Part shown: positions 10,074 through 26,021 of the stretch, in pieces
Layout of the letters: every line of letters begins with the position of its first letter
Position numbering within the stretch: position 1 is the stretch's first letter
Virus record (IMG/VR): IMGVR_UViG_3300046009_010605
Span: 1-27,061 of that record
DNA: 27,061 bases
Strand: one strand, 5' to 3'
Source of the DNA: a virus
Made by a program: the position numbers and the translations under genes
Notes under the pieces: generated by a model
Told to the model about the DNA's origin: nothing
Seen by the model: only the letters and a program-made list of their open reading frames with translations
Database searches by the model: none

Positions 10074-10102
10074 TTGACCAAAAAGAGCCCATTTGCTATA
10101 AT
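10074..10102 (+). promoter_or_regulatory. sigma70-type promoter P2
   Basis: TTGACC at 10074-10079, exact 17-base spacer, perfect TATAAT at 10097-10102 preceded by TGC (extended -10). The leader carries GGTACAGTAA and AAGGAG (10121-10126), eight bases before ATG 10135. Confidence 0.85.
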
Positions 10103-10439: not shown

Positions 10440-10468
10440 TTGACCATAATTCTCCATTTTGCTATACT
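10440..10468 (+). promoter_or_regulatory. sigma70-type promoter P3
   Basis: TTGACC at 10440-10445, 17-base spacer, TATACT at 10463-10468 with TGC in front (extended -10). AAGGAG follows at 10492-10497, six bases before ATG 10504. It probably drives several genes up to about 11796, since no further promoter of this class is seen until 11816. Confidence 0.82.
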
Positions 10469-10911: not shown

Positions 10912-10935
10912 CATTTGATCAAAAAGGATTTTGAC

Positions 10936-11139: not shown

Positions 11140-11151
11140 CAGGAGATTGAA

Positions 11152-11579: not shown

Positions 11580-11613
11580 TTGTCACAGTTGACTGTGTGA
11601 GTGGGAGACAGAC

Positions 11614-11796: not shown

Positions 11797-11817
11797 TGTT
11801 GCTGAATCAGCAACATT
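11795..11817 (+). repeat. perfect 11-bp inverted repeat before P4
   Basis: AATGTTGCTGA and TCAGCAACATT flank a single central A. It begins at the stop codon of the previous gene and its right arm overlaps the -35 box of P4 (11816). The core is the same GTTGCT/AGCAAC as at 10046 and 12799. No T-run follows. Confidence 0.7.
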
Positions 11818-11844
11818 GACTGAAATTCTCTGTTGTGCTAATAT
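11816..11844 (+). promoter_or_regulatory. sigma70-type promoter P4 (weaker)
   Basis: TTGACT at 11816-11821, 17-base spacer, TAATAT at 11839-11844 preceded by TGC. GGGAGG lies about 5 bases before ATG 11867. Confidence 0.6.
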
Positions 11845-11866
11845 ATGTTTCTTGACGGGAGGCACT

Positions 11867-11980
11867 ATGCAAACTCTGCGTGAATTGGTGGTTTGGACAG
11901 CAACCGGTGCAGCAATAGGCGCAACTGTTGCTGTTTTGCTATTGGCCGGGAATCATCTAGCCCAGGTCCTGCTGACTTGA
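11867..11980 (+). CDS. 37-residue membrane peptide
   Basis: A very short frame from ATG 11867 to TGA 11978-11980 with a strong GGGAGG ribosome site and its own promoter P4. After 'MQTLRELVVWTATG' comes an Ala/Gly/Val/Leu-rich segment 'AAIGATVAVLLLAGNHLAQ' that would span a membrane once. The stop overlaps the -35 box of P5. Its separate promoter and good ribosome site argue that it is a real gene although it is too short for similarity to say anything. Possible roles by shape are membrane-potential or lysis effects; none is shown. Confidence 0.6.
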   Translation: MQTLRELVVWTATGAAIGATVAVLLLAGNHLAQVLLT

Positions 11981-12005
11981 CCAAAAATCCCTGATGCTGT
12001 AAAAT
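11977..12005 (+). promoter_or_regulatory. sigma70-type promoter P5
   Basis: TTGACC at 11977-11982, 17-base spacer, TAAAAT at 12000-12005. The leader repeats GGTACAGTAA as in P2 and has AAGGAG at 12024-12029, five bases before ATG 12035. Confidence 0.8.
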
Positions 12006-12034
12006 AGTGGTACAGTAAACAACAAGGAGCAAGC

Positions 12035-12268
12035 ATGTTAGAAGTCACAGAATTCCGGGGTCGTGTTTACAATCGACGTCATGGTGGTGCGTTTGATCGC
12101 GGCAGCGCAGACAGTTACTATCGCAGACCGCGCGACCCGCACTATTATGAAGGCGGTACTGGTACCAGCGCCAAAGTCATACCAGAACCAGGCAGTCGTG
12201 AATACATGGACTACATGGCCGGCTATGAGTACAACGAGCTGCAAGGCGACTTCAAAAACTGGGATTGA
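12035..12268 (+). CDS. conserved small phage protein (RHGG-FDRGSADSYYRR type)
   Basis: This 77-residue protein starts at ATG 12035 after a good AAGGAG. It contains 'NRRHGGAFDRGSADSYYRR' followed by 'PRDPHYYEGGTG' and ends 'YMDYMAGYEYNELQGDFKNWD'. I recognise the general type, 'FDRGSADSYY-R...PH-Y...G...Y-AGY', as one found in many unrelated tailed phages, always as an uncharacterised small protein. It is rich in Arg, Tyr and Gly with no membrane segment. First gene of the P5 unit, with two or three small genes following without their own promoter. Confidence 0.75.
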   Translation: MLEVTEFRGRVYNRRHGGAFDRGSADSYYRRPRDPHYYEGGTGTSAKVIPEPGSREYMDYMAGYEYNELQGDFKNWD

Positions 12269-12270
12269 TC

Positions 12271-12468
12271 ATGGACCGACCCAACTACAGTCAACACCAA
12301 TATACCGTGCGATACACACTGAATCGCAAACGCCAGATCCGTGAGGCAATAGATGATCTATTGACAGAGCTGCATCAGGCACAATTGGACATGATTGATC
12401 AGGCCGTGGATCACAGCGACCTGCGTCAAGCCCGTGGACTCATTGACTACATCAGGGGACTGAAATAA
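12271..12468 (+). CDS. hypothetical small helical protein
   Basis: This 65-residue protein starts at ATG 12271, two bases after the previous stop; a TTG at 12265 is possible. After 'YTVRYTLNRKRQ' the rest reads as two amphipathic helices ('IREAIDDLLTELHQAQLDMI' and 'DLRQARGLIDYIRGLK'). No family is recognised. Its TAA shares a base with the next ATG (TAATG), so translation re-initiation is likely. Confidence 0.65.
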   Translation: MDRPNYSQHQYTVRYTLNRKRQIREAIDDLLTELHQAQLDMIDQAVDHSDLRQARGLIDYIRGLK

Positions 12469-12626
12469 TGGATACATTTCTGATTCAAATTGAACACGAT
12501 CCGGTGGCGGGTTCCTACATGGCCTGCTACAGCAACGGTGCCAATGTGATGTTGGCAGCTGGCTCCTACCAAGATGCGGTGCTGGAAGCCGACATGCTGG
12601 ATCCTGCAGAATATGACTGCGCCTAG
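12468..12626 (+). CDS. hypothetical 52-residue protein
   Basis: A short frame from ATG 12468 to TAG 12624-12626, overlapping the previous TAA by one base. The product opens 'MDTFLIQIEHDPVAGSYMA' and continues with a small-residue stretch 'NGANVMLAAGSYQDAVLEAD'. The pattern of an initial strand, an acidic turn and a later helix is similar to small HicB-like or antitoxin-like folds, but it is too short to claim that. It overlaps the following zinc-ribbon gene by 14 bases. Confidence 0.55.
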   Translation: MDTFLIQIEHDPVAGSYMACYSNGANVMLAAGSYQDAVLEADMLDPAEYDCA

Positions 12627-12834
12627 ACCTTGTTCGGTGGACTTGGGCACTGCTCAGTTGGCAGCAGCCCAGGGTCCGTGGGGGCCGCCCATGTCGCTGT
12701 ATACCTGCACAGGGTGTGGGTTTGTTGGCTTTGACACTCAGTTGTATTTTTACAACACCCCTGCAGACCGCTGTATTTGGTGCAGAAAATACCCCAAAGT
12801 TGCTAAAAAAGCAACAGTTGACAAAAAAGACTAG
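12613..12834 (+). CDS. small zinc-ribbon-like protein
   Basis: The frame from ATG 12613 gives 73 residues; ATG 12574 and ATG 12691 are other possible starts. Two cysteine pairs, 'YTCTGCGF' and 'DRCIWCRKY', are spaced about 22 residues apart and form a plausible four-cysteine zinc-binding site. The N-terminal part has a Pro/Gly-rich linker ('AQGPWGPPMS'), and the tail is lysine-rich ('VAKKATVDKKD'). Such ribbons in small phage proteins often bind nucleic acid or RNA polymerase, which here is only a suggestion. The last codons contain the hairpin at 12799 and the -35 box of P6. Confidence 0.6.
   Translation: MTAPRPCSVDLGTAQLAAAQGPWGPPMSLYTCTGCGFVGFDTQLYFYNTPADRCIWCRKYPKVAKKATVDKKD
12799..12815 (+). 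repeat. GTTGCT/AGCAAC hairpin before P6
   Basis: GTTGCT (12799-12804) and AGCAAC (12810-12815) with an AAAAA loop, two bases before the -35 box of P6 and inside the end of the zinc-ribbon gene. This is the third copy of the same core before a promoter in this block. Confidence 0.6.
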
Positions 12835-12846
12835 ATCCCATATAAT
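12818..12846 (+). promoter_or_regulatory. consensus sigma70 promoter P6
   Basis: Perfect TTGACA (12818-12823), 17-base spacer and perfect TATAAT (12841-12846). AAGGAG at 12866-12871, five bases before ATG 12877. It is the strongest match in the block, placed before the AAA+ ATPase gene. Confidence 0.9.
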
Positions 12847-12876: not shown

Positions 12877-13899
12877 ATGAGCACAATTCGTATTCTGCGT
12901 GGCAGCTATCGTAACTTCCCGATTGAAAATACTGTGTTTGAACTTGTGTCTGGATTCCAGACCGGCGCCAAAGGCAATTACGTTACAGTCAAGAACAATG
13001 GCACTTTCCCTAAATTTAGCGATGTGATCCGCGTCCGAGTTGACAGCATCGCAGACATGGAGTATACCAACAGCATGAATATCGACAACACTGTAAAATT
13101 TGACAAGCCCGTGGCAGCACCAGCGGAAACCGACGAGCAGGCCATTCAGCGCATTCGTGAGCGTTTTGAAATCCTGCATGAAATGACCAAGGCCACAGTC
13201 AACGGCGACATCCGTGCCATGATTGTGAGCGGCCCGCCCGGCGTTGGCAAGAGCTTTGGTGTTGAGCAAGAAATTGAAAAGGCCACACTGTTTGACAAAC
13301 TGGCTGGCCGACGCTTGCGAGCCGAGGTTGTGAAAGGTTCGGCTACACCAATCGGCCTGTACATGACCCTGTACAAGTATTCAGACCCCAACTGCGTGAT
13401 TGTGTTCGACGACTGTGATTCAATCTTGCTAGACGACGTTGCACTGAACCTGCTGAAAGGTGCCTTGGACTCCGGCAAGAAGCGCACCATTAGTTGGCTC
13501 AGTGAGAGCAGCGCTCTGCGTCGTGAAGGCATTCCTGAGCGTTTTGAATTCAAGGGTAGTGTGATCTTTATTACCAACCTCAAGTTTGACAAGATGAAGT
13601 CGCAGAAACTGCGCGACCACTTGGATGCATTGCAGTCACGCTGCCACTACTTGGACCTTACCCTGGACACCATGCGTGACAAGATCCTGCGTATCCGACA
13701 GATTGCAGACGACGGTGTGTTGTTTGATGGCTATGATTTTGAGCCTGTACAGCGCGACGAGATCATTCAGTTCATGGACGACAATCAGAATCGTCTGCGT
13801 GAGATGAGTCTGCGCATGGCACTGAAGATTGCTGACCTGCGCAAGATGAGCCCCAACTGGCGTCGTCTGGCAGAGACCACTTGCATGAAGGTTGGCTAA
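12877..13899 (+). CDS. AAA+ family ATPase
   Basis: This 340-residue protein starts at ATG 12877 with AAGGAG five bases upstream. An N-terminal region of about 90 residues precedes the ATPase core. Walker A is 'SGPPGVGKSF' (GPPGVGKS at 119-126), Walker B is 'VIVFDDCD' (174-181), a sensor-1-type 'VIFITNLKFD' has T233-N234, and arginines after it ('LRDHLDALQSRCHYLDL') could supply the finger or sensor 2. The C-terminus is helical. This is a stand-alone phage AAA+ protein, not a clamp loader of the usual gp44 form as far as can be seen. It has a perfect consensus promoter and a strong terminator of its own, so it is probably abundant early in infection. Its target is unknown. Confidence 0.85.
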   Translation: MSTIRILRGSYRNFPIENTVFELVSGFQTGAKGNYVTVKNNGTFPKFSDVIRVRVDSIADMEYTNSMNIDNTVKFDKPVAAPAETDEQAIQRIRERFEILHEMTKATVNGDIRAMIVSGPPGVGKSFGVEQEIEKATLFDKLAGRRLRAEVVKGSATPIGLYMTLYKYSDPNCVIVFDDCDSILLDDVALNLLKGALDSGKKRTISWLSESSALRREGIPERFEFKGSVIFITNLKFDKMKSQKLRDHLDALQSRCHYLDLTLDTMRDKILRIRQIADDGVLFDGYDFEPVQRDEIIQFMDDNQNRLREMSLRMALKIADLRKMSPNWRRLAETTCMKVG

Positions 13900-14791: not shown

Positions 14792-15401
14792 AGGTGTGTA
14801 TCACAATGGCCTGTTTGCTGACATGACCCAGGGCTCTAAAGTCATTGCTGACATGAGCCAAGTGGCTGTCCCACCATACCAGGTCGCCTGGGTTCCAAGT
14901 AATCCATTCACGCACGGACACTTTCTGCAGCTGATGCAAAGGCACATGCGCAAGATCTTGTTGTAGATGGGCAGCATTGTGTTCAACACAGGGCATTTGC
15001 TCAAAATCACTCAAGGTTTCATTAAATACAACAGTGGCAGCCTGTGAACACAATGAAACATCATTGTCCACACTGTAGGGAATCAAACAACTGACATGGT
15101 GCTTGCCCTGGGGTTCTGGCAACGGCTTGAGGTCATGATGTATGCCAAATGGGTCATGGCAATCCAACAGCATGCCAAAAATCAATTGCACATGGTCGCC
15201 AAATTGTTGTTGTATTCTTCGGAAACAACAGCGTTTGAACCATAGATAGGCCAAATGCTTTTGATCAACACCGTAGATGGCATTGCCAGCACCTTCATAT
15301 TCCACTGTGGGGAAACGACGAAAGGTTCGAATCATGTCCTCGACTTCAACTTGATCAAACAATCCAGGAATTACACCGCAATGAAATTTGACATCTAGCA
15401 C
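14781..15401 (-). CDS. 2-oxoglutarate/Fe(II)-dependent oxygenase-like protein
   Basis: Starting at GTG 15401 the protein has 206 residues. Longer frames up to ATG 15473 would run back through the promoter region and the divergent uvsW start, so GTG is preferred. A candidate iron site is 'FGIHHDLKPL' (H88-x-D90) and the distal histidine in 'LVWWDSHLAHVSN' (H180 or H183), with a downstream R189 or K196 for 2-oxoglutarate. 'HHVSCLIPYS' and 'TVVFNE' look like the jelly-roll strands between. This fits the phytanoyl-hydroxylase/prolyl-hydroxylase class. The gene is followed by the PLP enzyme with an 11-base overlap, so they probably act in one pathway. Confidence 0.62.
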   Translation of the reverse strand: MLDVKFHCGVIPGLFDQVEVEDMIRTFRRFPTVEYEGAGNAIYGVDQKHLAYLWFKRCCFRRIQQQFGDHVQLIFGMLLDCHDPFGIHHDLKPLPEPQGKHHVSCLIPYSVDNDVSLCSQAATVVFNETLSDFEQMPCVEHNAAHLQQDLAHVPLHQLQKVSVREWITWNPGDLVWWDSHLAHVSNDFRALGHVSKQAIVIHTYVV

Positions 15402-15416
15402 AAAAATATTTATAAT
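15388..15416 (+). promoter_or_regulatory. perfect consensus promoter, leaderless arrangement (uvsW)
   Basis: TTGACA at 15388-15393, a 17-base spacer and TATAAT at 15411-15416. The ATG of the uvsW-like gene starts at 15423, only six bases after the -10 box, so transcription should begin at or next to the A of ATG. No ribosome site is present. The -35 box lies inside the start of the divergent oxygenase gene. Confidence 0.88.
15407..15414 (-). promoter_or_regulatory. possible T4-late-type promoter (TATAAATA) on minus strand
   Basis: Read on the minus strand, bases 15414-15407 are TATAAATA, the exact core of T4 late promoters, five bases before GTG 15401. It overlaps the -10 region of the plus-strand promoter. 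The site is AT-rich, so chance is possible; the call depends on the phage having a gp55-type late sigma factor. Confidence 0.35.
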
Positions 15417-15422
15417 ACACTC

Positions 15423-16895
15423 ATGAGACAATGCCAAATAGTGGTCAAGGACGAAGTCAATGTGCGTATTCAAGGTCTTGATCTTGACACACGCAAAGAT
15501 TTGGTCAAGGCCTTCAAATACGATGTACCCTATGCACGATATCTACCGGCTGTGCGACTAGGCCGCTGGGATGGCAAGGTCAGTTATTTTCAACTGGGCG
15601 GCAGTACCTACATCAATCTCTTGCCTGAAATATTGTCAGTGCTGGAACAGAACAACTGGGACATTGAGCTGATTGATGAACGTGACTATGCTACCACGTT
15701 TGAATTCACAGCCGTGGATGAAAACAGTTACGGTCATGTGTTGTGGCCCAAGGGTCACCCACAACAGGGTCAGCCCATGCAGTTGCGTGACTATCAGGTA
15801 GAAATCATCAATACATTTCTTGAGAATCCGCAGTGCATTCAAGAAGTGGCCACGGGTGCAGGCAAAACAGTGATCACAGCGGCCTTGAGCAATGCAGTCA
15901 CCCCACATGGTCGCAGCATAGTCATTGTACCCAACAAGAGTCTTGTGACACAGACCGAGACTGACTATGTCAACATGGGTCTGGATGTGGGTGTGTTCTA
16001 TGGCGAACGCAAAGAATTTGGACGACAGCACACCATATGCACCTGGCAGAGTCTCAACGTACTGCTCAAGAACACCCGCAATCATGAAGCAGACATCACC
16101 ATACAAGAGTTCCTGGAAGATGTGGTGTGTGTGATTGTGGACGAAGTACACATGGCCAAGGCCGACGCACTCAAGACCCTATTGACGGGTGTCATGAGTC
16201 GCATACCCATGCGTTGGGGGCTGACAGGAACCATACCCAAAGAAAAGTTTGAGTCTGTGGCACTGACTGTGAGTTTGGGTCCAGTGGTCAATCGCTTGGC
16301 AGCTAGTGAACTGCAGGATCGCGGCGTGCTGGCACAGTGCCATGTCAACATAGTGCAGCTCCAGGACCATGTGGAGTTCAGCAACTATCAGAGCGAGTTA
16401 AAGTATCTTCTAGAAGAATCTGGCAGACTTGATACCATGGCCGAATTGATTGCTCGTGTGCGTGAAACTGGCAATACCTTGGTGCTGGTGGACCGTGTGG
16501 CAGCAGGCCTGGCCTTGGTAGAGCGCCTGGGCGACCGTGCTGTGTTTGTGAGTGGTGCTACCAAGACTGCTGAAAGAAAAGAACACTATGATGAAGTTGC
16601 AGAAACTGATGACAAAATTATTGTTGCTACCTATGGTGTGGCTGCTGTGGGTATCAATATTCCCCGTATCTTTAATCTTGTACTTGTTGAACCGGGAAAA
16701 AGCTTCGTTAGAGTTATACAATCGATTGGTCGCGGTATCAGAAAAGCTGAAGACAAAGACTTTGTACAAATCTGGGACGTGACCAGTACCTGCAAGTTTG
16801 CCAAGCGACATCTCACCAAACGCAAAGTGTACTATCGCGAAGCCAACTATCCATTCACACAAGAACGTTTGGAGTGGATGACATTGAGTCGTTGA
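15423..16895 (+). CDS. uvsW: UvsW-like superfamily 2 DNA helicase
   Basis: This 490-residue protein is close to T4 UvsW (about 500). UvsW unwinds branched DNA, drives recombination-dependent replication and removes R-loops. Motifs in order: N-terminal DNA-binding part with 'LGRWDGKVSYF', Q-like 'LRDYQVEI' (121-128), Walker A 'ATGAGKT' (143-149), Walker B box DEVH (240-243), motif III 'GLTGT' (ending at 270), motif V 'VAAVGINIP' and motif VI 'QSIGRGIRK' with its arginine fingers. The ATG at 15423 follows a consensus promoter by six bases. Around 16560-16780 the codons turn AT-richer than in the rest of the gene. Its TGA overlaps the next promoter. Confidence 0.92.
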   Translation: MRQCQIVVKDEVNVRIQGLDLDTRKDLVKAFKYDVPYARYLPAVRLGRWDGKVSYFQLGGSTYINLLPEILSVLEQNNWDIELIDERDYATTFEFTAVDENSYGHVLWPKGHPQQGQPMQLRDYQVEIINTFLENPQCIQEVATGAGKTVITAALSNAVTPHGRSIVIVPNKSLVTQTETDYVNMGLDVGVFYGERKEFGRQHTICTWQSLNVLLKNTRNHEADITIQEFLEDVVCVIVDEVHMAKADALKTLLTGVMSRIPMRWGLTGTIPKEKFESVALTVSLGPVVNRLAASELQDRGVLAQCHVNIVQLQDHVEFSNYQSELKYLLEESGRLDTMAELIARVRETGNTLVLVDRVAAGLALVERLGDRAVFVSGATKTAERKEHYDEVAETDDKIIVATYGVAAVGINIPRIFNLVLVEPGKSFVRVIQSIGRGIRKAEDKDFVQIWDVTSTCKFAKRHLTKRKVYYREANYPFTQERLEWMTLSR

Positions 16896-16920
16896 CAAAT
16901 ACCAAACAATAACCTATACT
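16892..16920 (+). promoter_or_regulatory. near-consensus promoter, leaderless arrangement
   Basis: TTGACA at 16892-16897 overlaps the uvsW stop codon; a 17-base spacer leads to TATACT at 16915-16920. ATG 16927 is six bases further, with no ribosome site. It shares this geometry with the uvsW and primase promoters. Confidence 0.83.
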
Positions 16921-16926
16921 GACAGT

Positions 16927-17427
16927 ATGAGAATACTAACACTAGACAATGAGTGCTATGATCTTGATCATTTACCGGAAGAGGTAGATGACTTGAGGTT
17001 TGCAATACTGGACAACAGCGATCCGCGCGATCCAGACTACCATTTTATTCCTTTGATTTTTTTGGAAAGTTTCAACAGTCCAGCCTTGGTGCTGCGCATA
17101 GGCAACCACACAGTCAAGATGCCCATGGACTGGCAGATTCTGATAGGTGAACCTGATCTAGGAGATCTAGAAGTATTGCCGCTGACTTCGATCAATGATC
17201 GCGGATTCAAGGTGTTTCAATTCAATCCACTCAGCAGTTATAGACCCAGTTTCCCTGACATTGAAATCTTGGATGTATATCACGAAGTGTCGTGGTATGC
17301 ACCCAAACTAAAAAACGGTCAACTGTTGGCCGTTCCTCTCAGCGACGATACAGAACCTGACTGCGTGTACTTTGTGAAAGACATCAGTCGCAACTGTGAG
17401 ATAGTAGACTACAATCGGGCATGGTGA
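16927..17427 (+). CDS. hypothetical protein downstream of uvsW
   Basis: This 166-residue, acidic protein starts at ATG 16927, six bases after a -10 box. Distinct phrases are 'MPMDWQILIGEPDLGDLEVL', 'VFQFNPLSSYRPSFPDIEIL' and 'WYAPKLKNGQLLAVPLSD', which look like a beta-rich fold with a conserved central 'W-I-G-E/D' strand. No catalytic motif or membrane segment is visible. The 'K-GQLLAVPL' phrase feels like conserved T4-type phage proteins near replication genes, but I cannot name one. It starts an operon with the cupin gene, one base gap between them. Confidence 0.75.
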   Translation: MRILTLDNECYDLDHLPEEVDDLRFAILDNSDPRDPDYHFIPLIFLESFNSPALVLRIGNHTVKMPMDWQILIGEPDLGDLEVLPLTSINDRGFKVFQFNPLSSYRPSFPDIEILDVYHEVSWYAPKLKNGQLLAVPLSDDTEPDCVYFVKDISRNCEIVDYNRAW

Positions 17428-17428
17428 C

Positions 17429-17773
17429 ATGAAAATCAAATTACGCAAAAACAACATCGGCGGCGAAGTTGTGCTAGACAATGAAGTATACTGTGTGAGA
17501 GACAATCGCACACTGAACAATCTGGTGCTGAGCAGCACACGATTGCGAGTGGGACAACAAACACGAGGACATCGACATGCAGGGCAAGAAGAAATTTACT
17601 TTTTTGTGGGCGGTCATGGCAAAATGATCGTGGGCGATGAACACAGCGAACCGTTTGAAGTAGGCAGCGGTGACATTGTGCTGATTCCCGATGGTGCTTT
17701 TCACCGTGTTATCAACGACGGTGAGATAGACATGTTATTCAACTGTGTGTTTGATGGAAAACGAAATCACTAG
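17429..17773 (+). CDS. cupin-domain protein
   Basis: This 114-residue single-domain cupin starts at ATG 17429, one base after the previous stop. Cupin motif 1 is 'RGHRHAGQEEIYFFVGGHGKM' split here into H48, H50, E54 or E55 and the glycine pair. Motif 2 is 'GDIVLIPDGAFHRVIN' with H92. These provide a full metal site. Such small cupins can be sugar epimerases or isomerases, small-molecule dioxygenases or sugar-binding sensors. In a phage with many sugar genes a sugar-nucleotide role is possible, but it is far from that island and sits with replication genes. The 3' end overlaps the next gene by 20 bases. Confidence 0.85.
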   Translation: MKIKLRKNNIGGEVVLDNEVYCVRDNRTLNNLVLSSTRLRVGQQTRGHRHAGQEEIYFFVGGHGKMIVGDEHSEPFEVGSGDIVLIPDGAFHRVINDGEIDMLFNCVFDGKRNH

Positions 17774-18020
17774 TCAACTTGAACCTGGCGCCACTTACGT
17801 CTACGAAAAAGTCAACGGGCATACCTATGCTAGGCGTGTGGGAGACCCTGCCAGTCAGCGTGTGCTGATTGGTATTGATCAAGATCAAAGAGATCTAATT
17901 AGTCAACTGCGTGAAGACAAGTTGTGGGGCAACATTAGACGGGCTGCACAAACCAATCCCACTTTACATGATGCTCTAGAACATGTTAAAATGATATACA
18001 ACCTTACAAAACATGAGTGA
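17754..18020 (+). CDS. conserved small phage protein, function unknown
   Basis: This 88-residue protein starts at ATG 17754 (a GTG at 17745 would add three residues), 20 bases inside the cupin gene. Phrases are 'GATYVYEKVNGHTYARRVGD', 'RVLIGIDQDQRDLISQLRED' and 'LWGNIRRAAQTNPTLHDALE', ending in a helix 'HVKMIYNLTKHE'. The 'Y-Y-E-x-V-x-G-x-x-Y-A-R' opening reminds me of small proteins conserved in T4-type marine phages, without known function. It overlaps the next gene by 8 bases, so the group 17429-19130 is one coupled unit. Confidence 0.72.
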   Translation: MENEITSQLEPGATYVYEKVNGHTYARRVGDPASQRVLIGIDQDQRDLISQLREDKLWGNIRRAAQTNPTLHDALEHVKMIYNLTKHE

Positions 18021-18459
18021 CAAACTTTCCATACAGTACGAAATGCGCCAGTTTGATCTCAAATCTAGATCATTCTATGATGACCTCACTGACGAAGAAC
18101 GCAAGAAGTTCAGCAACTATCTCATGATACGCTGGGGATCAAGTGTGACTGGTAGTCGCGACCTTCAGGAATACTATGTGATTGCCACCAATGAATTGTT
18201 GAACACAAATTTTTTTGCAGTGAACCGGCATCCCAAACTACAGTGGCTCATGGCCACCACAGTGAGTCCGGACATGGGACCACAACGTCATCAATGGATA
18301 GCGCCCAAGAAAAAAGCAGCGGGACAGAGTGCCCGTCGCAAACAACTGCAGGAAATTTTCCCACACTATCGTGATGACGAAATAGATGTCATGATGCAGA
18401 TAACCACAGACGAAGAACTACGCCAATACGAACGTGACAGTGGTCAAGACAAAAAATGA
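18013..18459 (+). CDS. possible sliding-clamp-loader small subunit (gp62-like)
   Basis: This 148-residue protein starts at ATG 18013. The layout 'FSNYLMIRWGSSV', 'IATNELLNTNFF', 'LQWLMATTVSP', 'QRHQWIAPKKK', then a helical region 'IFPHYRDDEIDVMMQ' follows that of the small clamp-loader subunit of T4-type marine phages (a Y-hh-N/R-hhS segment, an N-x-x-N/L segment, and a Q-x-x-x-W/F-K-W-I-K-K basic segment). In T4 this subunit bridges the gp44 ATPases that load gp45. The match is by pattern and memory, not by alignment. The gp44 and gp45 genes are not in the window. Placement next to uvsW and the zinc-finger gene agrees with a replication role. Confidence 0.42.
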   Translation: MSDKLSIQYEMRQFDLKSRSFYDDLTDEERKKFSNYLMIRWGSSVTGSRDLQEYYVIATNELLNTNFFAVNRHPKLQWLMATTVSPDMGPQRHQWIAPKKKAAGQSARRKQLQEIFPHYRDDEIDVMMQITTDEELRQYERDSGQDKK

Positions 18460-19130
18460 CCTTCAAGTGCGAATACTGTGAACGCACGTTTCAACGCGAG
18501 CAGAGTTTGGTTGTGCATGTGTGCGAGCAGGCACAGCGTCGTCGCAACCAAAACAATCGTGATGTACAGCTAGGCTATCAGGCCTTTCTACGTTTTTATG
18601 AAGCAGCTCATGGCAGTAGTCGTCTCAAGACCTATGAAGACTTCTGCCGCAGTCCCTACTATCGTGCTTTTGTGCAATTTGGCAAATATTGCATAGACAT
18701 TCATGCCTTGGATCCTGAACAGTTTTTGAACTGGTTGCTCAAAAACAACAAACGTATTGACCGTTGGTGCAGTGATCAACTGTACACAGAGTTCTTGACG
18801 CATTATCTTCCACAAGAAAATCCCGGCGTGGCACTGACACGGGCCATTGAATACAGCATTGAGTGGGCCGAACGCAATGAGGCTGCGGCTCATGACTGTT
18901 TGAGATTTGGCAACGTCAATGCAATATGTTATGCTATAACCACGGGACGAATCAGCCCCTGGGTAATATACAACTGCGAAAGTGGGCAGCAGTTTTTGGC
19001 CACTCTTTCAGCACAGGAACTGAGTTTGATATGGCCCTATCTTGACAGTGATGTTTGGCAAAAGAGATTTTCAAGTTATCCAGCCGATCAAATCTGGGTC
19101 AAGGAAATGTTGACTCAGGCTGGATGGTAA
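18456..19130 (+). CDS. N-terminal zinc-finger protein, conserved in T4-type phages
   Basis: This 224-residue protein starts at ATG 18456 (ATGA overlap). It begins with a classic small zinc finger, 'FKCEYCERTFQREQSLVVHVC' (C5, C8, H21, C23), followed by a basic stretch 'QAQRRRNQNNRDVQ' and a large helical domain with 'GYQAFLRFYEAAH', 'YEDFCRSPYYRAFVQFG' and 'NWLLKNNKRIDRWCSDQLYT'. I recall proteins of this shape next to clamp-loader genes of marine T4-type phages, always uncharacterised. The finger and basic region suggest DNA or RNA binding. The 'Y..F..S.YY..F..FG' phrase gives the helical domain its identity. Confidence 0.72.
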   Translation: MTFKCEYCERTFQREQSLVVHVCEQAQRRRNQNNRDVQLGYQAFLRFYEAAHGSSRLKTYEDFCRSPYYRAFVQFGKYCIDIHALDPEQFLNWLLKNNKRIDRWCSDQLYTEFLTHYLPQENPGVALTRAIEYSIEWAERNEAAAHDCLRFGNVNAICYAITTGRISPWVIYNCESGQQFLATLSAQELSLIWPYLDSDVWQKRFSSYPADQIWVKEMLTQAGW

Positions 19131-19145
19131 TAGAGAGCGACACCG

Positions 19146-19514
19146 ATGATTACAACTATTTTAACCGGCAGTGAACACATAAACATCACAGGTGGTTACG
19201 TTACCACTGTGTATGTGTCAAACTGGCAGGAGTATGCACATGCGCGAGTGGCCGGTGCTGTTCGCTACAATGCCAGCCATCAATGTACAGAAGTTTTTGA
19301 TGGCAATGCATGGATGCGACTCCCATCCAACGCTGCCACTGTGGATCTTGCCCCAGATTCCAAACAGGCACTGGACTGGGCCAAGAAAAAAATGCGAGAA
19401 GAACAAGAACGACAGACTCTGGCAGAAAACAATCCAGCATTTGCTGATCTGTTGAATCAGTTTCGTGAACTAGAACAAAAAGTACGAATGGTTGAGGCCC
19501 TGATCAAGACATGA
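19146..19514 (+). CDS. probable virion-associated protein
   Basis: This 122-residue protein starts at ATG 19146, 15 bases after the previous stop, with only a weak AGAG upstream. The N-terminal half carries 'GAVRYNASHQCTEVFDGNAW', the R-Y-N-x-x-x-x-x-x-E-V-x-D-G-x-x-W phrase typical of phage tail-fibre and other virion proteins with short beta-strand repeats. The C-terminal half is a long charged helix ('LDWAKKKMREEQERQTLAEN' and on to the end) likely to form a coiled coil. The stop overlaps the next gene's start (ATGA at 19511). Confidence 0.6.
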   Translation: MITTILTGSEHINITGGYVTTVYVSNWQEYAHARVAGAVRYNASHQCTEVFDGNAWMRLPSNAATVDLAPDSKQALDWAKKKMREEQERQTLAENNPAFADLLNQFRELEQKVRMVEALIKT

Positions 19515-20089
19515 GCGCAGACATTGACATTGACTTGGCCAACCGTGATCAAATACTAAGCTTGATTCGACACACGCCAGCACGGCATACAGTGCAGGGG
19601 CAAACACGCCGCCACAACAGCGGTGTGTATGTCACAGACATTCCGCAAGATCCAGTCAACGGCTGTGCTGCCATAGACTACGAACAGGCCGAACAGCGTG
19701 GTTATTTCAAGATAGACTTTCTCAACATGGGAGTGTATCAATTGGTGCGTGACCAACAACATCTTGATGACATGTTGAGTCAAGAACCTCCCTGGTCAAG
19801 ACTGTGGCAAGATTCAGAATGGACCAAGCAGTTGGTGCATGTGGGCAATTACACAGATCTGCTGGCAGTGATGCGCCCTGACAGTATTGAACGCATGGCT
19901 GCATTTATCAGTATAATTAGGCCAGGCAAGGCGCACCTACAGCGGCAACCTTGGTCACAGGTGTTTGCTTCGGTATGGGATGGGGACAGCAGCAGGGGAT
20001 TTGTGTTCAAAAAATCACATGCTGTGAGCTACAGCATGCTGGTGGCGTTACATATGAATCTGCTCAATCAAGACGTCGTACCAGAGTGA
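19511..20089 (+). CDS. miniature DnaE-like protein (Pol III alpha palm/fingers remnant)
   Basis: This 192-residue protein starts at ATG 19511 in an ATGA overlap. It reads like a condensed DnaE core: 'ADIDIDLANRDQI' (residues 3-15) matches the P-D-x-D-x-D-F strand with two catalytic aspartates, 'GYFKIDFLNMGVY' (64-76) matches the K-x-D-F-L strand with the third (D69), 'IRPGK' (136-140) matches the fingers R-P-G segment, and 'FKKSHAVSYSMLVALHMNLL' (166-185) matches the K-S-H-A-x-x-Y-A helix. The PHP, thumb-like, HhH and OB parts of the usual 1,100 residues are missing. I recall similar small proteins in T4-type marine phages. Whether it polymerises DNA or only binds it is unknown. Confidence 0.7.
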   Translation: MSADIDIDLANRDQILSLIRHTPARHTVQGQTRRHNSGVYVTDIPQDPVNGCAAIDYEQAEQRGYFKIDFLNMGVYQLVRDQQHLDDMLSQEPPWSRLWQDSEWTKQLVHVGNYTDLLAVMRPDSIERMAAFISIIRPGKAHLQRQPWSQVFASVWDGDSSRGFVFKKSHAVSYSMLVALHMNLLNQDVVPE

Positions 20090-20441
20090 TGCTCTTGCGT
20101 TTGGATTTTTTGCGGGTAATATCCAGCAGACTACAGGCAGGACCGTGAATAATTTCAAGATCTTTGTTGACAAAAGTGCGCAACGTGTGCCTAAATTTTC
20201 GCCAGTCTTGGCGCAGGAAAATGTTGATAGGAATGCTTCTATTGCTTTCCCACCACCAAACACTGGCTAGTTCTAGAAATTCTAGTTTGGCATTTTGGTC
20301 TTGTACACTGCCAAAGTCGTATATGGTGGTGACGATGTCGTCCCTGTTTTGTACTATGCCCACGTACTCTTGATTGGCGTAAACGCATAGAGTAATAAAA
20401 GGGTATTTTTCAGTCAGTTTTTCAAACAAAGTGTTGCCCAT
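20064..20441 (-). CDS. conserved T4-type phage protein, function unknown
   Basis: This 125-residue protein starts at ATG 20441 and ends inside the last 26 bases of the mini-DnaE gene on the other strand. Phrases are 'FEKLTEKYPFITLCVYANQE', 'YVGIVQNRDDIVTTIYDFG', 'FLELASVWWWESNRSIPINI' and 'FRHTLRTFVNKDLEIIHGPA'. The 'WWWESNR-IPINIFLR' core is strikingly conserved in my memory of marine T4-type phage proteins, always without a function. It ends in a basic tail 'RKKSKRKSITLVRRLD'. It is a single minus-strand gene in a plus-strand region, with its start 20 bases from the divergent structural gene. Confidence 0.75.
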   Translation of the reverse strand: MGNTLFEKLTEKYPFITLCVYANQEYVGIVQNRDDIVTTIYDFGSVQDQNAKLEFLELASVWWWESNRSIPINIFLRQDWRKFRHTLRTFVNKDLEIIHGPACSLLDITRKKSKRKSITLVRRLD

Positions 20442-20446
20442 AAATA
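20439..20446 (+). promoter_or_regulatory. possible T4-late-type promoter (CATAAATA)
   Basis: CATAAATA differs from the T4 late core TATAAATA at one base. It lies 15 bases before ATG 20462, with GAGGA at 20453-20457 as ribosome site, and precedes a gene that looks structural, as expected for a late promoter. Confidence 0.4.
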
Positions 20447-20461
20447 CGTGTCGAGGATTCT

Positions 20462-21532
20462 ATGTATTCGACACCCGTTTACTTATATCAACAGATTACC
20501 AAAGTGTTATTGATTGACACCGGTGGAGAATATTTCACAGCGAGGTACGACCCAGTGTACGCAAAATATCTAACCATCAACAAGGGTGTTGACAATGTTC
20601 TACTGTTTGAGTTTTTGAATCAAGATCAAAAACCCGTGAACATTTTGGGCAGCACATTCAAATTTCGCCTGCTGAATCAAGCAGGCGACCGTCAACTATT
20701 GGAAAAAACCATGACAGTGTTGAGCACCACACTGGGCAGAGTCAAAGTTGTGTTGGACAGCACCGACACTGACAACATTGTTGCACAGCCTGCCAGCTAC
20801 AGCATTGAGCGCATTCAGGGAGATTATCAACAGGCTGTGTTTGTGGACGACAATGCTGGTGCCAGGGGCTACGCTGATGTTGTAGACAGTGTGTTGCCGC
20901 AGTTTATTCCCAGCGCAGAGCTCACAGTGCCCGATGTGTATGGCAAAAATCAATGGGTAGGTGACAATCCCACCAGTTGGCCAGACTGGGCACTGACCCC
21001 ACAACCACAAAACGCCATTCAGCAGACCGAATTCTACAGCAGCTTTATTCCCACCAATGGCAGCAGCTTTACCACTGTAAAAATGGATTTGGTTGGCTAC
21101 ACTGGAACTGTGAAACTACAGGCTGCAGCCAACTATGAAAGTGTTTGGTATGATGTTACAGAAAGCCGCGAATATCTCAATGAAACCAGCACCATCTTTT
21201 TCAATGCAGTGGGATACTATCCACTGCTGCGAGTGGCTCTAAACAACAGCATTGGTTACGGAGCACAGGCTTCGGCCACAGTGGTTGATGGAGTTGTGAC
21301 CAGCATCACAGTGACCAATCCTGGTTATTATTACCAAGCTGCTCCTTATGTGGAAATTTTGGGCAACGGTGCCGGGGCCAGAGCTGTGGCCACCATTGGC
21401 GGCAACGGCAGCGTGAGCAGCATTGCTGTTGTTGAAGGCGGCAGCGGATATCTGCCAATTCAGTTTGGTAGCAGCATCAGTGCCACAGTGCTGATCACCA
21501 ATGGCAAAGTTCAAAATTTACAATACCGATAA
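20462..21532 (+). CDS. virion structural protein with glycine-rich beta repeats
   Basis: This 356-residue protein starts at ATG 20462 after GAGGA. The N-terminal part ('NKGVDNVLLFEFLNQDQKPV', 'GSTFKFRLLNQAGDRQLLEK') looks like an immunoglobulin- or baseplate-type beta domain that sets a default shape. The C-terminal 120 residues contain about three imperfect repeats with the plan 'A-x-V-x-x-G-x-V-x-S-I-x-V-x-x-x-G-x-x-Y': 'VVDGVVTSITVTNPGYYY', 'GGNGSVSSIAVVEGGSGYLP' and the last 'LITNGKVQNLQYR'. This 'GGSGY-P' repeat is typical of adhesin-like or fibre-like virion proteins of T4-type marine phages. A late promoter-like box precedes it, which fits late expression. Confidence 0.75.
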   Translation: MYSTPVYLYQQITKVLLIDTGGEYFTARYDPVYAKYLTINKGVDNVLLFEFLNQDQKPVNILGSTFKFRLLNQAGDRQLLEKTMTVLSTTLGRVKVVLDSTDTDNIVAQPASYSIERIQGDYQQAVFVDDNAGARGYADVVDSVLPQFIPSAELTVPDVYGKNQWVGDNPTSWPDWALTPQPQNAIQQTEFYSSFIPTNGSSFTTVKMDLVGYTGTVKLQAAANYESVWYDVTESREYLNETSTIFFNAVGYYPLLRVALNNSIGYGAQASATVVDGVVTSITVTNPGYYYQAAPYVEILGNGAGARAVATIGGNGSVSSIAVVEGGSGYLPIQFGSSISATVLITNGKVQNLQYR

Positions 21533-21535
21533 TCA

Positions 21536-21564
21536 TTGTTGACTGTTGTGCATTATGCTATAAT
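21536..21564 (+). promoter_or_regulatory. extended -10 promoter, leaderless arrangement (primase)
   Basis: Perfect TATAAT at 21559-21564 with TGC directly upstream (extended -10). At 17-base spacing the -35 is TTGTTG (21536-21541); a better TTGACT at 21539-21544 is only 14 bases away. ATG 21571 follows the -10 by six bases, and no ribosome site is present. Confidence 0.75.
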
Positions 21565-21570
21565 AGCTAG

Positions 21571-22560
21571 ATGCTAGATGTGCGCAACTATATTCCTGGA
21601 CGACGACGCCAAACTCCGTCGGGCTGGGTCAGTTTCAATGCAGTGTGTTGTCAACATCAAGGACACGACGCAGATCGACGCGGTCGCGGTGGTTTCAAAG
21701 CCACCGATCAGGGCTGGAGTTATCACTGTTTCAATTGCGGATTCAAAGCCAGTTTCATCATTGGACGCACTCTCAGTTACAAGGCACGTCGACTGTTGAC
21801 TTGGCTGGGCGTGCCTGAACAAGAAGTTGAGCAGTTGAATCTTGAAAGTCTGCGACATCGAAGCATACACGGTGTGTTGGATCAACGTCGTCAACTGCAA
21901 GATTCTATTGCAGGCATTGAATTCGAAGAACGCGACTTGCCACCCTTTGCCGAAGCTCTCACCGCCGAACATGACATCCATTGGCAATATCTGCAAAACC
22001 GTTGTGTGCCCATGGACTATCCATATCAGGTTCAGATACAGAATGATGGTGTGCATTGGACCAGACCTCACGTGGTGATTCCATTTACCTATGATCATCG
22101 CGTGGTGGGTTATACCTGTAGATTTTTAGACAACAAACAACCACGTTACATATCAGACACCCAACCTGGCTATGTGTTTGGCATGGACCTGCAGCACGAC
22201 AACTGGCAACAGGTGATTGTGGTTGAAGGCATATTTGATGCACTGTCAATATCTGGAGTGGCTGTGATGCATGCTGATATTTCAGATGCACAAGCTAGAT
22301 TGATACGCAGTTTAGATCGTGACATCGTGGTGGTGCCTGATCAAGATCGCGCTGGACTGGCCTTGATAGAACGTGCAGTGGAGCTGGGTTGGTCTGTGAG
22401 CATGCCTGACTGGCCAGCGGGAGTGAAAGATGTCAACGATGCTGTGATCAAGCTGGGAAAACTGGTCACGCTGCTGACTATCATGCAAGCACGTGAAACC
22501 AGCAAAGTCAAGATTGCATTGAAGCTAAAACGATTGAAAAAAAAGCTAGAACAACAATGA
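21571..22560 (+). CDS. DNA primase, T4 gp61-like
   Basis: This 329-residue protein matches the size of T4 gp61 (342). The N-terminal zinc domain has 'NAVCCQHQGHD' (C26, C27, H29) and 'YHCFNCGF' (C53, C56). The catalytic TOPRIM domain has 'VIVVEGIFDALS' with E219 and 'VVVPDQDRAGL' with D257 and D259 for the two metal ions. It makes RNA primers for lagging-strand synthesis, working with the gp41-type helicase encoded further on. The start at ATG 21571 fits the family's 'TPSGW-SFN' N-terminus. The C-terminus is a lysine-rich helix. Transcription is predicted to begin at the ATG itself. Confidence 0.9.
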   Translation: MLDVRNYIPGRRRQTPSGWVSFNAVCCQHQGHDADRRGRGGFKATDQGWSYHCFNCGFKASFIIGRTLSYKARRLLTWLGVPEQEVEQLNLESLRHRSIHGVLDQRRQLQDSIAGIEFEERDLPPFAEALTAEHDIHWQYLQNRCVPMDYPYQVQIQNDGVHWTRPHVVIPFTYDHRVVGYTCRFLDNKQPRYISDTQPGYVFGMDLQHDNWQQVIVVEGIFDALSISGVAVMHADISDAQARLIRSLDRDIVVVPDQDRAGLALIERAVELGWSVSMPDWPAGVKDVNDAVIKLGKLVTLLTIMQARETSKVKIALKLKRLKKKLEQQ

Positions 22561-22582
22561 ACAGACTGTGGTGTGAATCTTG

Positions 22583-23599
22583 ATGCAAAACTTTTGTGTG
22601 ATTCCTTGGTACAGTCAAGAACTTGATCTGCGCTCAGGTGTAGAAACTGTGTGCTGTTGGATTGATGAGGATATCTCAAGACATCAGTTACAACAGCAAT
22701 TTTTGTCAGGACAACGACCCAGCCAATGCCAAAGATGCTGGCAGTCTGAAAGCCAAGGCATTGAAAGTCGCAGACAGATGGAAAATAGATTCCTTGATTT
22801 CAAAATGAACAGGGATCTAGAATTCTTGGCCCATGATGTTGCACAAGGCCAATCACACATCAACATGTATCAACTGTTTCTTGGCAGCACTTGCAACGGT
22901 GCTTGTGTCACTTGCGGGCCTGAATCTAGTTCATTGTGGAGGTCACTGCAAAAACGCACTGTGAGCATTAGATCGGAAAATACCGCAGTTGACGATCGTT
23001 GGCAAAACTTCTGCAGCACAGTGGATTGGACCGCAGCCAAACGATTCAATCTTTTGGGTGGCGAACCTTTGTTGCTGGACAAAAGTTTTGATGTGTTGCA
23101 AAAACTGTTACAGGCTGGCAACACCGACTGCAGGGTCAGTTTTGTAACCAATGGCAGTGTGACACCTAACAAACATCAACGTGAACTATTCAAACAGTTC
23201 ACTGACATCAGTTGTTGTGTCAGTATTGATGGCATTGGGTCTGTGTACGAGTATTTGAGATATCCATTGAGTTGGTCGGCCATGGAAAAAAATCTGGCGG
23301 TGTATCAAGAAATTTTCAGTGAAGTTGTGGTCAATGTAACCATCAGCAATTTGAATTATCATTTGCGTGAGGAAATTGTGGCTTGGTTGCAGAAAATGCA
23401 ACTAAAACATTTTGAAACCTATGTGAGTGACCCGCCTTGGTTCAACTGTGAGGTAACTCCCGAACATGCTTTGTGGCCTCGATTTGTCCAAGAAATCCAA
23501 ACACAGGACAACATAAAACAAATCAACATTGAAGATTACATGCCAGACATTGCTCAACTTATCCAAGAATCAACAACAGTGCAACACAAAATGTTATAA
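22583..23599 (+). CDS. radical SAM protein with N-terminal twitch-like cysteine region
   Basis: This 338-residue protein starts at ATG 22583 (a TTG one codon earlier is unlikely), 22 bases after the primase gene and without a clear ribosome site. The radical SAM cluster motif is 'STCNGACVTCGP' (C104, C108, C111; C-x3-C-x2-C). Before it lies a cysteine region, 'TVCCWIDED' and 'QCQRCWQSES', typical of twitch/SPASM-like auxiliary-cluster or zinc sites placed N-terminally. Later parts have 'NLLGGEPLLLD' (the GGEP motif), 'VSFVTNGS' and 'CCVSIDG', all usual in this barrel. The substrate is unknown. Its place between primase and helicase genes is unusual for such an enzyme. Confidence 0.85.
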   Translation: MQNFCVIPWYSQELDLRSGVETVCCWIDEDISRHQLQQQFLSGQRPSQCQRCWQSESQGIESRRQMENRFLDFKMNRDLEFLAHDVAQGQSHINMYQLFLGSTCNGACVTCGPESSSLWRSLQKRTVSIRSENTAVDDRWQNFCSTVDWTAAKRFNLLGGEPLLLDKSFDVLQKLLQAGNTDCRVSFVTNGSVTPNKHQRELFKQFTDISCCVSIDGIGSVYEYLRYPLSWSAMEKNLAVYQEIFSEVVVNVTISNLNYHLREEIVAWLQKMQLKHFETYVSDPPWFNCEVTPEHALWPRFVQEIQTQDNIKQINIEDYMPDIAQLIQESTTVQHKML

Positions 23600-23600
23600 T
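23592..23600 (+). promoter_or_regulatory. extended -10 promoter, leaderless arrangement (helicase)
   Basis: TGT directly precedes a perfect TATAAT (23595-23600), an extended -10 element. No convincing -35 is seen at 16-18 bases. ATG 23608 comes seven bases after the -10 box and has no ribosome site. The box lies in the last codon of the radical SAM gene. Confidence 0.65.
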
Positions 23601-23607
23601 TATCACT

Positions 23608-25014
23608 ATGCTCAAAGACTACGGAATTGACGTTCAAAGATTGTTCTTGGAAATGATGTTGGAAGATGCTGCCAGCTATGTGCGAGTGCAGAATATCTTC
23701 AATCCACAGAACTTTGACAAGAGTTTGAGGCCAGCAGCTGAGTTCATTCGAGAACATAGCGACCGCTTCAAGACCATGCCAGACCGCACACAGATACAGG
23801 CCACCACAGGCGTGCGACTTGAGGCAGTGCCGGATCTCAATGAAGGACACTTTGAATGGTTCATGACTGAGTTTGAGTCTTTTACTCGTCGTCAAGAGCT
23901 AGAACGTGCCATTCTCAAGAGTGCAGACTTATTGGAGAAAGGTGAGTTTGAACCTGTGGAGAAACTGATCAAAGATGCTGTACAGATCAGTCTCACCAAG
24001 GATCTAGGCACAGACTTCTGGGCTGATCCTGAAGGCATGTTTAGCAAGTATTTTGATGCAGGAGGTCAAGTCAGCACAGGTTGGCCACAGCTGGACAAAA
24101 TCATGTACGGTGGCTTCAGTAGAGGCGAACTCAACATCTTTGCAGGCGGCTCAGGGTCAGGCAAGAGCTTGGTCATGATGAACATTGCCTTGAACTGGGT
24201 GCAACAGGGCTTGCATGGTGTGTATGTCACGCTGGAACTCAGTGAAGAACTCACAGGGCTGCGTACATCGGCCATGCTCACAAATATGAGCACCAAGGAA
24301 ATACGCAAAGACAAAGAAACAGCAGCACTCAAGGTCAAGATGGTGGGCAAAAAGGCCGGCAGCTATCAGATCAAAGTATTGCCAGCACAGAGCAACATCA
24401 ATGACATTCGTGCATACTTGAAAGAGTATCAGATCAAGACCGGACGCCGAGTTGACTTTATCATGGTAGACTACTTGGATCTCTTGATGCCCGTGAGCGC
24501 CAAGGTCAGTCCCAATGACTTGTTTGTGAAAGACAAGTATGTGAGTGAAGAACTACGTAACTTGGCCAAGGAACTGTCACTGTTGATGATCACAGCATCG
24601 CAGTTGAATCGTAGTGCAGTAGAAGAAATTGAATTTGACCACAGTCATATTTCAGGTGGTATCAGTAAAATCAACACAGCAGACAACGTGTTTGGTATCT
24701 TTACTTCGCGAGCCATGCGTGAGCGTGGCAAGTATCAAATACAGTGTATGAAGAGTCGCTCGTCAACCGGCGTGGGACAAAAAATTGACCTGGAGTACAA
24801 CATTGAAACCATGCGCATTACTGACCTCGCTGAAGATGAACAGTATCAAGAATTCAAAAAGCGAGCACCCAGCATCTATGAAAGTATCAAGGCAAAAAGC
24901 CAGATTACTTCAGACGAACCCAACGCCACTGTGGCTGACGAGCCAGGAAAAATCTCAGCTGACGTGCAATCTGCCAAGCTGAAAACTCTGCTGAATCGTA
25001 TCAAGCAGACATGA
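23608..25014 (+). CDS. replicative DNA helicase, T4 gp41/DnaB-like
   Basis: This 468-residue protein is close to T4 gp41 (475). The N-terminal domain (1-130) is helical, with 'MLKDYGIDVQRLFLEMMLED' at its start. The RecA-like core has Walker A 'FAGGSGSGKSLVM' (GGSGSGKS at 180-187), the 'YVTLELSEE' H1a-like strand, Walker B 'VDFIMVDYLDLL' (282-293), an 'ITASQLNRS' glutamine motif and 'GISKINTADNV'. It would form the hexamer that unwinds the fork and recruits the primase. The C-terminal 60 residues are charged and probably disordered. Its TGA overlaps the start of the second radical SAM gene. Confidence 0.92.
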   Translation: MLKDYGIDVQRLFLEMMLEDAASYVRVQNIFNPQNFDKSLRPAAEFIREHSDRFKTMPDRTQIQATTGVRLEAVPDLNEGHFEWFMTEFESFTRRQELERAILKSADLLEKGEFEPVEKLIKDAVQISLTKDLGTDFWADPEGMFSKYFDAGGQVSTGWPQLDKIMYGGFSRGELNIFAGGSGSGKSLVMMNIALNWVQQGLHGVYVTLELSEELTGLRTSAMLTNMSTKEIRKDKETAALKVKMVGKKAGSYQIKVLPAQSNINDIRAYLKEYQIKTGRRVDFIMVDYLDLLMPVSAKVSPNDLFVKDKYVSEELRNLAKELSLLMITASQLNRSAVEEIEFDHSHISGGISKINTADNVFGIFTSRAMRERGKYQIQCMKSRSSTGVGQKIDLEYNIETMRITDLAEDEQYQEFKKRAPSIYESIKAKSQITSDEPNATVADEPGKISADVQSAKLKTLLNRIKQT

Positions 25015-26021
25015 TTGCGTATGATAAAATACGCGACATACATCTTGAAGCGGCCACACTGTGCAACGCTGCATGTCCTTGGTGTCCGCGCACGTTTTGG
25101 GGATACCCTTACAACGGCGGCTATCCTGAACTATATCTAGCACTGGATCAGGCCAAACAGATCTTCAGTGCGCAGTTCTTGAAACAAATCAAAACTGTTA
25201 GAATCAACGGAAACTTTGGCGACATTGTGATGAACCCCGACGGGGCCGACATCGTTGAGTATTTTCGCAACTGCAATAGCAAAATCAAAATCACAGTAAA
25301 CACCAATGGCGGCGCTCGTGACAAAGAGTTTTGGCAGAGGTTGGCCAAGGCTGGTGCCACGGTAGTGTTTGCATTGGATGGCCTAGCAGACACGCACCAT
25401 CTCTATCGTCAGAACACAGTTTGGTCCACAGTAATTCGCAATGCTGGAATTTTTATTGCAGCAGGCGGAACAGCAGTGTGGCAAATGATCAAGTTCAAGC
25501 ACAATGTTGATCAAATCAAACAGTGCAAAAAACTCAGTGTCGAACTGGGTTTTAAAAAATTTGAGTTAGTAGATCACGGACGAGATACTGCACCGGTGTT
25601 TGACGGCAACGGAAATCTGTCGCATGTGTTGGGGGATTATCAGGGCGAGACCAGTTTTCCAGTGTTGTTTCATAAAAAGCAGACCGATGACGTATTGCTG
25701 CAAGACATTGTGAAAAATCGTCAACCCCGACGCAGAGTGAGATGCGATGCACAGAGAAATCGCAGCATTTATATGGCTGCCAATGGTGATGTCAGTCCCT
25801 GCTGTTGGACAGGCATGTATCCTCGTACCTATGGTCGTGGGCAGTATTACCAAGCTGTGAACAAACAAGTAGCAGCCTTGATGACCAAAAACAATGCTCT
25901 GGAATATTCTTTGCAGGAATGCATTGAATGGTTTGCAGCAGTCAAGACATCATGGCAGATTGCAAACTATGATCAGGGTCGGTTGGTGGTGTGCGATGAC
26001 TACTGCGGATCAAATTTCTAA
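25011..26021 (+). CDS. radical SAM/SPASM-type protein
   Basis: This 336-residue protein starts at ATG 25011 in an ATGA overlap with the helicase gene. The cluster motif is 'TLCNAACPWCPR' (C18, C22, C25), followed by 'VRINGNFGDIVMNPD' where classical members have GGEP, and 'KITVNTNGG'. A C-terminal cysteine region, 'RVRCDAQRN' (C245), 'GDVSPCCW' (C264, C265) and a final 'CDDYCG', is SPASM-like and would hold an auxiliary cluster. Relatives modify peptides, sugars or nucleosides. It differs in layout from the radical SAM at 22583, so the two are not recent copies. Tail-to-tail it overlaps the DnaE gene by 12 bases. Confidence 0.87.
   Translation: MIAYDKIRDIHLEAATLCNAACPWCPRTFWGYPYNGGYPELYLALDQAKQIFSAQFLKQIKTVRINGNFGDIVMNPDGADIVEYFRNCNSKIKITVNTNGGARDKEFWQRLAKAGATVVFALDGLADTHHLYRQNTVWSTVIRNAGIFIAAGGTAVWQMIKFKHNVDQIKQCKKLSVELGFKKFELVDHGRDTAPVFDGNGNLSHVLGDYQGETSFPVLFHKKQTDDVLLQDIVKNRQPRRRVRCDAQRNRSIYMAANGDVSPCCWTGMYPRTYGRGQYYQAVNKQVAALMTKNNALEYSLQECIEWFAAVKTSWQIANYDQGRLVVCDDYCGSNF

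Follow-up and report, generated by a model that had tools for sequence, protein, structure and literature searches.

Phage genes whose mRNA starts at the AUG itself have a classical example in the cI mRNA of lambda, which is leaderless when transcribed from PRM. In the Thermus phage phiYS40, Sevostyanova et al. in 2007 reportedly found the middle and late transcripts to be leaderless, with a possible link to the balance of the initiation factors IF2 and IF3. Here we describe four genes of the virus record IMGVR_UViG_3300046009_010605 (27,061 bases, analysed in full and called the window), encoding a UvsW-like helicase, a 166-residue protein of unknown function, a DnaG-type primase and a DnaB/gp41-type helicase, that are predicted to be transcribed into leaderless mRNAs from promoters placed directly before the start codon. 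In contrast to the single repressor gene of lambda, a set of genes is concerned. The likeness to phiYS40 lies in a large phage said to have both leadered and leaderless transcripts, although phage and host are unrelated to those considered here, and here the class centres on the primase.

Among cellular genes, leaderless mRNAs have been described in bacteria repeatedly (PMC3160421, PMC12340547, PMC4117421). Two systems come close to the window, the TA-led genes (Zheng et al. 2011, PMC3160421) and the -10-adjacent promoters of Deinococcus-Thermus (PMC12340547); in these, as in the window genes, the first T of a TANNNT box lies about 12 nucleotides (nt) before the start, no Shine-Dalgarno (SD) motif is present and leaderless mRNA has been predicted or shown. 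Unlike those cellular systems, the genes described here belong to jumbo phages, their box is accompanied by a clear -35 element at a spacing of 17 nt, and they share their genome with a second, leadered class. The phages with homologous uvsW, primase and helicase genes in conserved order are those of the RaK2/GAP32/121Q type, and the window's gene order around these genes matches that of RaK2/GAP32-type phages, Sinorhizobium phage Phosso and Agrobacterium phage Atu_ph07. The UvsW product of the window is 55% identical to that of Phosso, 51% to that of Atu_ph07 and 47-49% to those of RaK2/GAP32-type jumbo phages. The RaK2/GAP32/121Q-type phages differ in that they encode IF3, have leadered primases and show no genome-wide excess of boxes at 6 nt in the two genomes tested (GAP32 and XaC1). 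The presence of IF3 in jumbo phages has been noted before (PMC7824862), and our literature search found no account of leaderless jumbo-phage primase genes or of a link between them and phage IF3.

The promoters and genes in question are the following:

15388..15393, + strand: -35 element of uvsW, TTGACA, exact consensus, 17-nt spacer
15411..15416, + strand: -10 box of uvsW, TATAAT, 6 nt between box end and ATG 15423
15423..16895, + strand: UvsW-like helicase gene, predicted leaderless (Pfam ResIII/Helicase_C; PHROG 16 DNA helicase)
16892..16897, + strand: -35 element of the 166-residue protein gene, TTGACA, 17-nt spacer, bases 2-4 being the uvsW stop TGA (16893-16895)
16915..16920, + strand: -10 box of the same gene, TATACT, 6 nt between box end and ATG 16927
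16927..17427, + strand: gene of the 166-residue protein of unknown function, predicted leaderless (PHROG 11279)
21536..21541, + strand: -35-like element of the primase gene, TTGTTG, 17-nt spacer
21556..21564, + strand: extended -10 of the primase gene, TGC-TATAAT (TATAAT 21559-21564), 6 nt to ATG 21571
21571..22560, + strand: DnaG-type primase gene, predicted leaderless (Pfam Toprim_2; PHROG 47 DNA primase)
22580..23599, + strand: radical-SAM gene between primase and helicase (weak Pfam Radical_SAM; PHROG radical SAM)
23592..23600, + strand: extended -10 of the helicase gene, TGT-TATAAT (TATAAT 23595-23600), 7 nt to ATG 23608
23608..25014, + strand: DnaB/gp41-type helicase gene, predicted leaderless in this genome (Pfam DnaB_C)

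The original prediction had placed -10 boxes 6, 6, 6 and 7 bases before the four ATGs, with TTGACA at 17-nt spacing for uvsW and the 166-residue protein gene and an extended TGn for primase and helicase, and all of this was verified base by base. The sequence TATAMT at an offset of 6 or 7 was found for 4 of the 38 called genes that were used for counts, while in 2000 dinucleotide shuffles of the upstream regions the count averaged 0.06 and did not exceed 1. It was also confirmed that no ribosome-binding site precedes the four starts; however, a 5-base SD match was present in only 6 of the 38 genes and a 4-base match in 14, and lack of SD is thus common in the window and no hallmark of the genes with a close box. 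The weakest site is that of the helicase, whose promoter at 23595-23600 has no -35 element.

Related loci were collected with the four window proteins as queries. Across 325 loci, a -10-like hexamer lay exactly 6 nt before ATG in 12.7% of open reading frame (ORF) starts, compared to mostly 0.3-3% at other offsets, and GTG and TTG starts gave no spike at 6 nt (2.4% and 1.0%). We then counted orthologue clusters, which had been made non-redundant by removing near-identical upstream regions but are related by descent and so not fully independent. A box 5-7 nt before the start was present in 58 of 63 clusters for the primase (about 6 expected by chance), 59 of 84 for the 166-residue protein gene, 29 of 96 for uvsW and 13 of 57 for the helicase (control mean 5.5, maximum 11); control offset triplets across the four genes averaged 5.5-7.1 with maxima of 10-15. 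A TTG at -35 spacing accompanied the box in 51 of 58, 52 of 59, 23 of 29 and 8 of 13 clusters, respectively, against 5, 4, 0 and 1 at control spacings. Start codons of the boxed clusters were ATG in 153 of 159 and GTG in the other 6. The primase box persists down to about 42% identity, and the 6-nt geometry is kept while the flanking sequence diverges, most consistently at the primase, where a leaderless-type promoter has been retained in more than 100 jumbo-phage contigs with its surroundings free to change. The conserved -10 spacing that had been proposed as a check in related genomes was therefore found.

Such boxes might be chance matches, or the ATGs might not be real starts, since the upstream regions are AT-rich and some small genes have, behind the box, an ATG that is part of the leader, their SD and true start following about 20 nt downstream. 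We consider this very improbable: the spike is limited to 6 nt and to ATG, comes with a -35 partner and was not reproduced by shuffles, and the N-termini of all four proteins are conserved among relatives from the close-box starts (UvsW from ATG 15423; the primase with MLD or MID).

For the scan of whole genomes and long relatives, an exact TATAMT-N6-ATG count was dropped as too noisy in AT-rich phages, and promoters were scored against an offset control instead. An initial list of leaderless small genes had included false cases with the ATG inside a leader that carries an SD; one procedure was used throughout, which discards such ATGs as a filter for internal SD-led starts. It gave 5-10 genes at offset 6 in each of G001, G004, G005, G006 and G011, compared to 0.9-1.4 expected, 12 in XacN1 and 9 in RAS14 (P from 2e-3 to 2e-7 over these seven genomes). 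Phosso showed a small excess (5 vs 1.1 expected), and no genome-wide spike at offset 6 was found in GAP32 (2 genes), PA5oct (0) or XaC1 (0). A separate leadered class with the box 24-36 nt upstream was clear in most genomes scanned.

In the window's relatives the close box was also found at genes for UvdE, a GIY-YIG nuclease, an Rv2179c-like 3'-5' exonuclease and a gamma-glutamyl cyclotransferase (GGACT) and at several genes of unknown function, and the class is thus not confined to replication. The idea of a separate expression class for replication genes therefore held for the primase and in part for uvsW, but not as an exclusive one. The helicase has its box in this genome, but in most relatives it is either led by an SD or part of an operon; TTG or GTG is the start codon of every one of the 22 SD-led helicases. 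The predicted arrangement is that of a wide group of jumbo phages without a detected IF3 of their own, with the primase as its most consistent member.

Because the box is conserved in relatives and the 6-nt spike precedes ATG but not GTG or TTG, leaderless transcription by host RNA polymerase is probably the best explanation (probability roughly 0.8), and the comparison strongly supports what the original prediction had suggested from geometry. According to this reading, sigma70-type promoters read by the host enzyme would start transcripts on the A of the AUG or no more than one base away, so that primase, uvsW, the 166-residue protein gene and, in this genome, the helicase would be made from leaderless mRNAs. 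From what the literature describes, such messages could be translated without an SD by 70S ribosomes on the 5'-terminal AUG. The original prediction had tied such 70S initiation to altered ribosome use by host or phage, which may be so; the one hint in this direction is the correlation with phage IF3 described below. We infer the transcription start itself, the recognition by host RNA polymerase and the SD-independent translation.

Several points weigh against this reading. The start site could be 1-3 nt off, giving a very short leader, and since many primases have AG just before the ATG, a start at G one base upstream is possible. Upstream promoters may also transcribe these genes. The leaderless state is read from DNA, and the capacity of the host to translate leaderless mRNA is an assumption. 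The excess for the helicase is modest, its 13 clusters barely exceeding the highest control of 11. PA5oct shows no genome-wide spike at all, and in G002 boxes precede the primase and the helicase (offset 5), yet a clear spike over the genome is lacking (4 vs 1.8 expected).

The position of the promoters could also follow from genome compaction alone, with scarce intergenic space pushing them against the ATG and leaderless mRNA arising as a by-product that has no regulatory meaning. Coding density is 92-94% in the window's relatives by the gene calls of this analysis. The commonest gap before the 166-residue protein gene is 31 nt, which is the minimum for a -35 element, spacer, -10 box and 6 nt when the upstream TGA lies inside TTGACA; in the window the stop TAA of the gene before the helicase (23597-23599) falls inside the -10 box. 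With one stop codon within a -35 element and another within a -10 box, these promoters fit very small gaps. However, the same genomes give extra space to leadered promoters elsewhere, gaps of 40-340 nt precede many leaderless uvsW genes, and the primase geometry is kept across lineages, yet phages with IF3 have leaders at the primase. We regard compaction as a sole cause as quite possible, at somewhat under even odds.

The box was also related to operon context. The uvsW genes with a box have an upstream gap in 22 of 29 clusters, whereas those without it abut the upstream ORF in 59 of 67 (Fisher P 1.5e-9); box and gap go together in the same direction for the 166-residue protein gene and the helicase, and no such association was found for the primase. 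Many relatives have the helicase gene immediately downstream of the primase gene; in the window the radical-SAM gene intervenes, and a separate box precedes the helicase. The window helicase is flanked by two radical-SAM genes, at 22580-23599 and 25011-26021.

Leaderless transcription of these genes may instead simply mirror the host, the class being adopted by phages whose hosts translate leaderless mRNAs well, as do several alphaproteobacteria and Xanthomonadales. Leaderless mRNAs account for 9.6% of coding sequences in Caulobacter (PMC4117421) and are reported in Xanthomonadales (PMC3160421), and the spike is present in XacN1 (Xanthomonas) and RAS14 (Stenotrophomonas) but not in GAP32 (Cronobacter). 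In addition, three of the four cellular matches of the bS21 protein of a related phage are alphaproteobacterial. However, XaC1 also infects Xanthomonas, yet it has no gene at offset 6 and a leadered primase, and a box lies close to the primase start in PA5oct (Pseudomonas), which lacks the genome-wide spike, and in SCTP-2 (Salicola). This explanation is conceivable but rather doubtful. Naming the host from bS21 was abandoned, the four matches (three alphaproteobacterial and one from Desulfocarbo) being distant, at no more than 46% identity. As a partner of the class bS21 was likewise dropped, since nearly every long relative encodes it, as do Phosso and Atu_ph07. In the related phage the bS21 gene (L406 1480-1704) adjoins ClpX-, small heat shock- and ClpS-like genes.

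Some leaderless mRNAs are translated less well when the level of IF3 is raised (PMC9031893), and we therefore examined phage-encoded IF3 (Pfam PF00707). It is present in Phosso, Atu_ph07, GAP32, RaK2, 2.275.O, Munch, CBB, SNUABM_44, 121Q, XbC2, XaC1 and BF; the window's relatives, G002, SCTP-2, PA5oct, XacN1, RAS14, S-H34 and Melnitz-2 gave no match. The window, itself a fragment of 27 kb, likewise yielded none, and the same negative was obtained for relatives 343 and 356 kb long. The close box was absent from the primase in all ten IF3 phages read at this gene; in nine of them a -10-like box lies roughly 26-60 nt upstream, in most cases with an SD-like motif ahead of the start codon, and the Phosso primase has an SD and no clear promoter. 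Nearly all relatives lacking IF3 have the close box; among phages lacking IF3, a box 6-7 nt before the primase start was read by eye in XacN1, PA5oct, SCTP-2, RAS14 and Melnitz-2, with starts that differ from the record in PA5oct, SCTP-2 and XacN1. The primase readings, with and without IF3, were made after the IF3 pattern was suspected. Weaker boxes were seen in SCTP-2 (TAGCAT), RAS14 (TACAAT) and Melnitz-2 (TATATT), and cyanophage S-H34, in which no IF3 was found, has no close box at the primase. XacN1 (no IF3, close box) and XaC1 (IF3, leadered primase) are both Xanthomonas phages. Placed on a tree of primases, IF3 presence requires two changes, and the association rests on about that many evolutionary events.

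We tentatively propose, at less than even odds, that in this superfamily of jumbo phages the primase mRNA has a leader where the phage carries IF3 and lacks one where it does not. Phages lacking IF3 would then have a leaderless primase mRNA, and several lineages of them a leaderless class that extends further. The evidence for this tie is suggestive but not proof. That absence of IF3 by itself produces a genome-wide class was rejected, as PA5oct lacks both IF3 and the spike, and IF3 as a full exclusion of leaderless genes was weakened by the small excess at 6 nt in Phosso. If the tie is true, the mode of translation initiation would be a switchable phage trait. The link can be tested, and related phages, some sharing a host genus, allow an essential gene to be compared in its naturally occurring leadered and leaderless forms.

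The close-box geometry also bears on the calling of primase starts, some of which appear to be misplaced in the records of XacN1, SCTP-2 and PA5oct. The annotated starts of XacN1 and SCTP-2 lie downstream of the box-adjacent start, with loss of a Cys-rich zinc-binding region, and the annotated GTG of PA5oct sits right at the box, while the leaderless geometry is matched by another GTG 6 nt downstream. The positions concerned in XacN1, SCTP-2 and PA5oct are:

L416 474 (AP018399.1 85221-86255)
L329 19971
L330 19935

The small-gene block of the window had been said to use leadered promoters with AAGGAG, and this was borne out at 10135, 10504, 12035 and 12877:

10074..10102, + strand: leadered promoter TTGACC-17-TATAAT of gene 10135-10434, box end 32 nt upstream, AAGGAG
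10440..10468, + strand: leadered promoter of gene 10504-10725, box end 35 nt upstream, AAGGAG
11977..12005, + strand: leadered promoter of gene 12035-12268, box end 29 nt upstream, AAGGAG
12818..12846, + strand: leadered promoter of gene 12877-13899, box end 30 nt upstream, AAGGAG

All four have 17-nt spacing, and assuming a start 7 nt past the box the predicted leaders are about 23-29 nt long. Genes of this block with their own promoters would thus be made from SD-leadered mRNAs. The promoters at 10074-12846 resemble a sequence family (about TTGACCAATAATTCCCAATTTGCTATAATA) that occurs in many copies in related genomes. In G005, the leadered small genes at 111294-111569, 112469-112684 and 129861-130217 have an ATG near the beginning of the leader that shares its reading frame with the SD-led start codon, about 20-30 nt downstream, so that two N-termini are possible.

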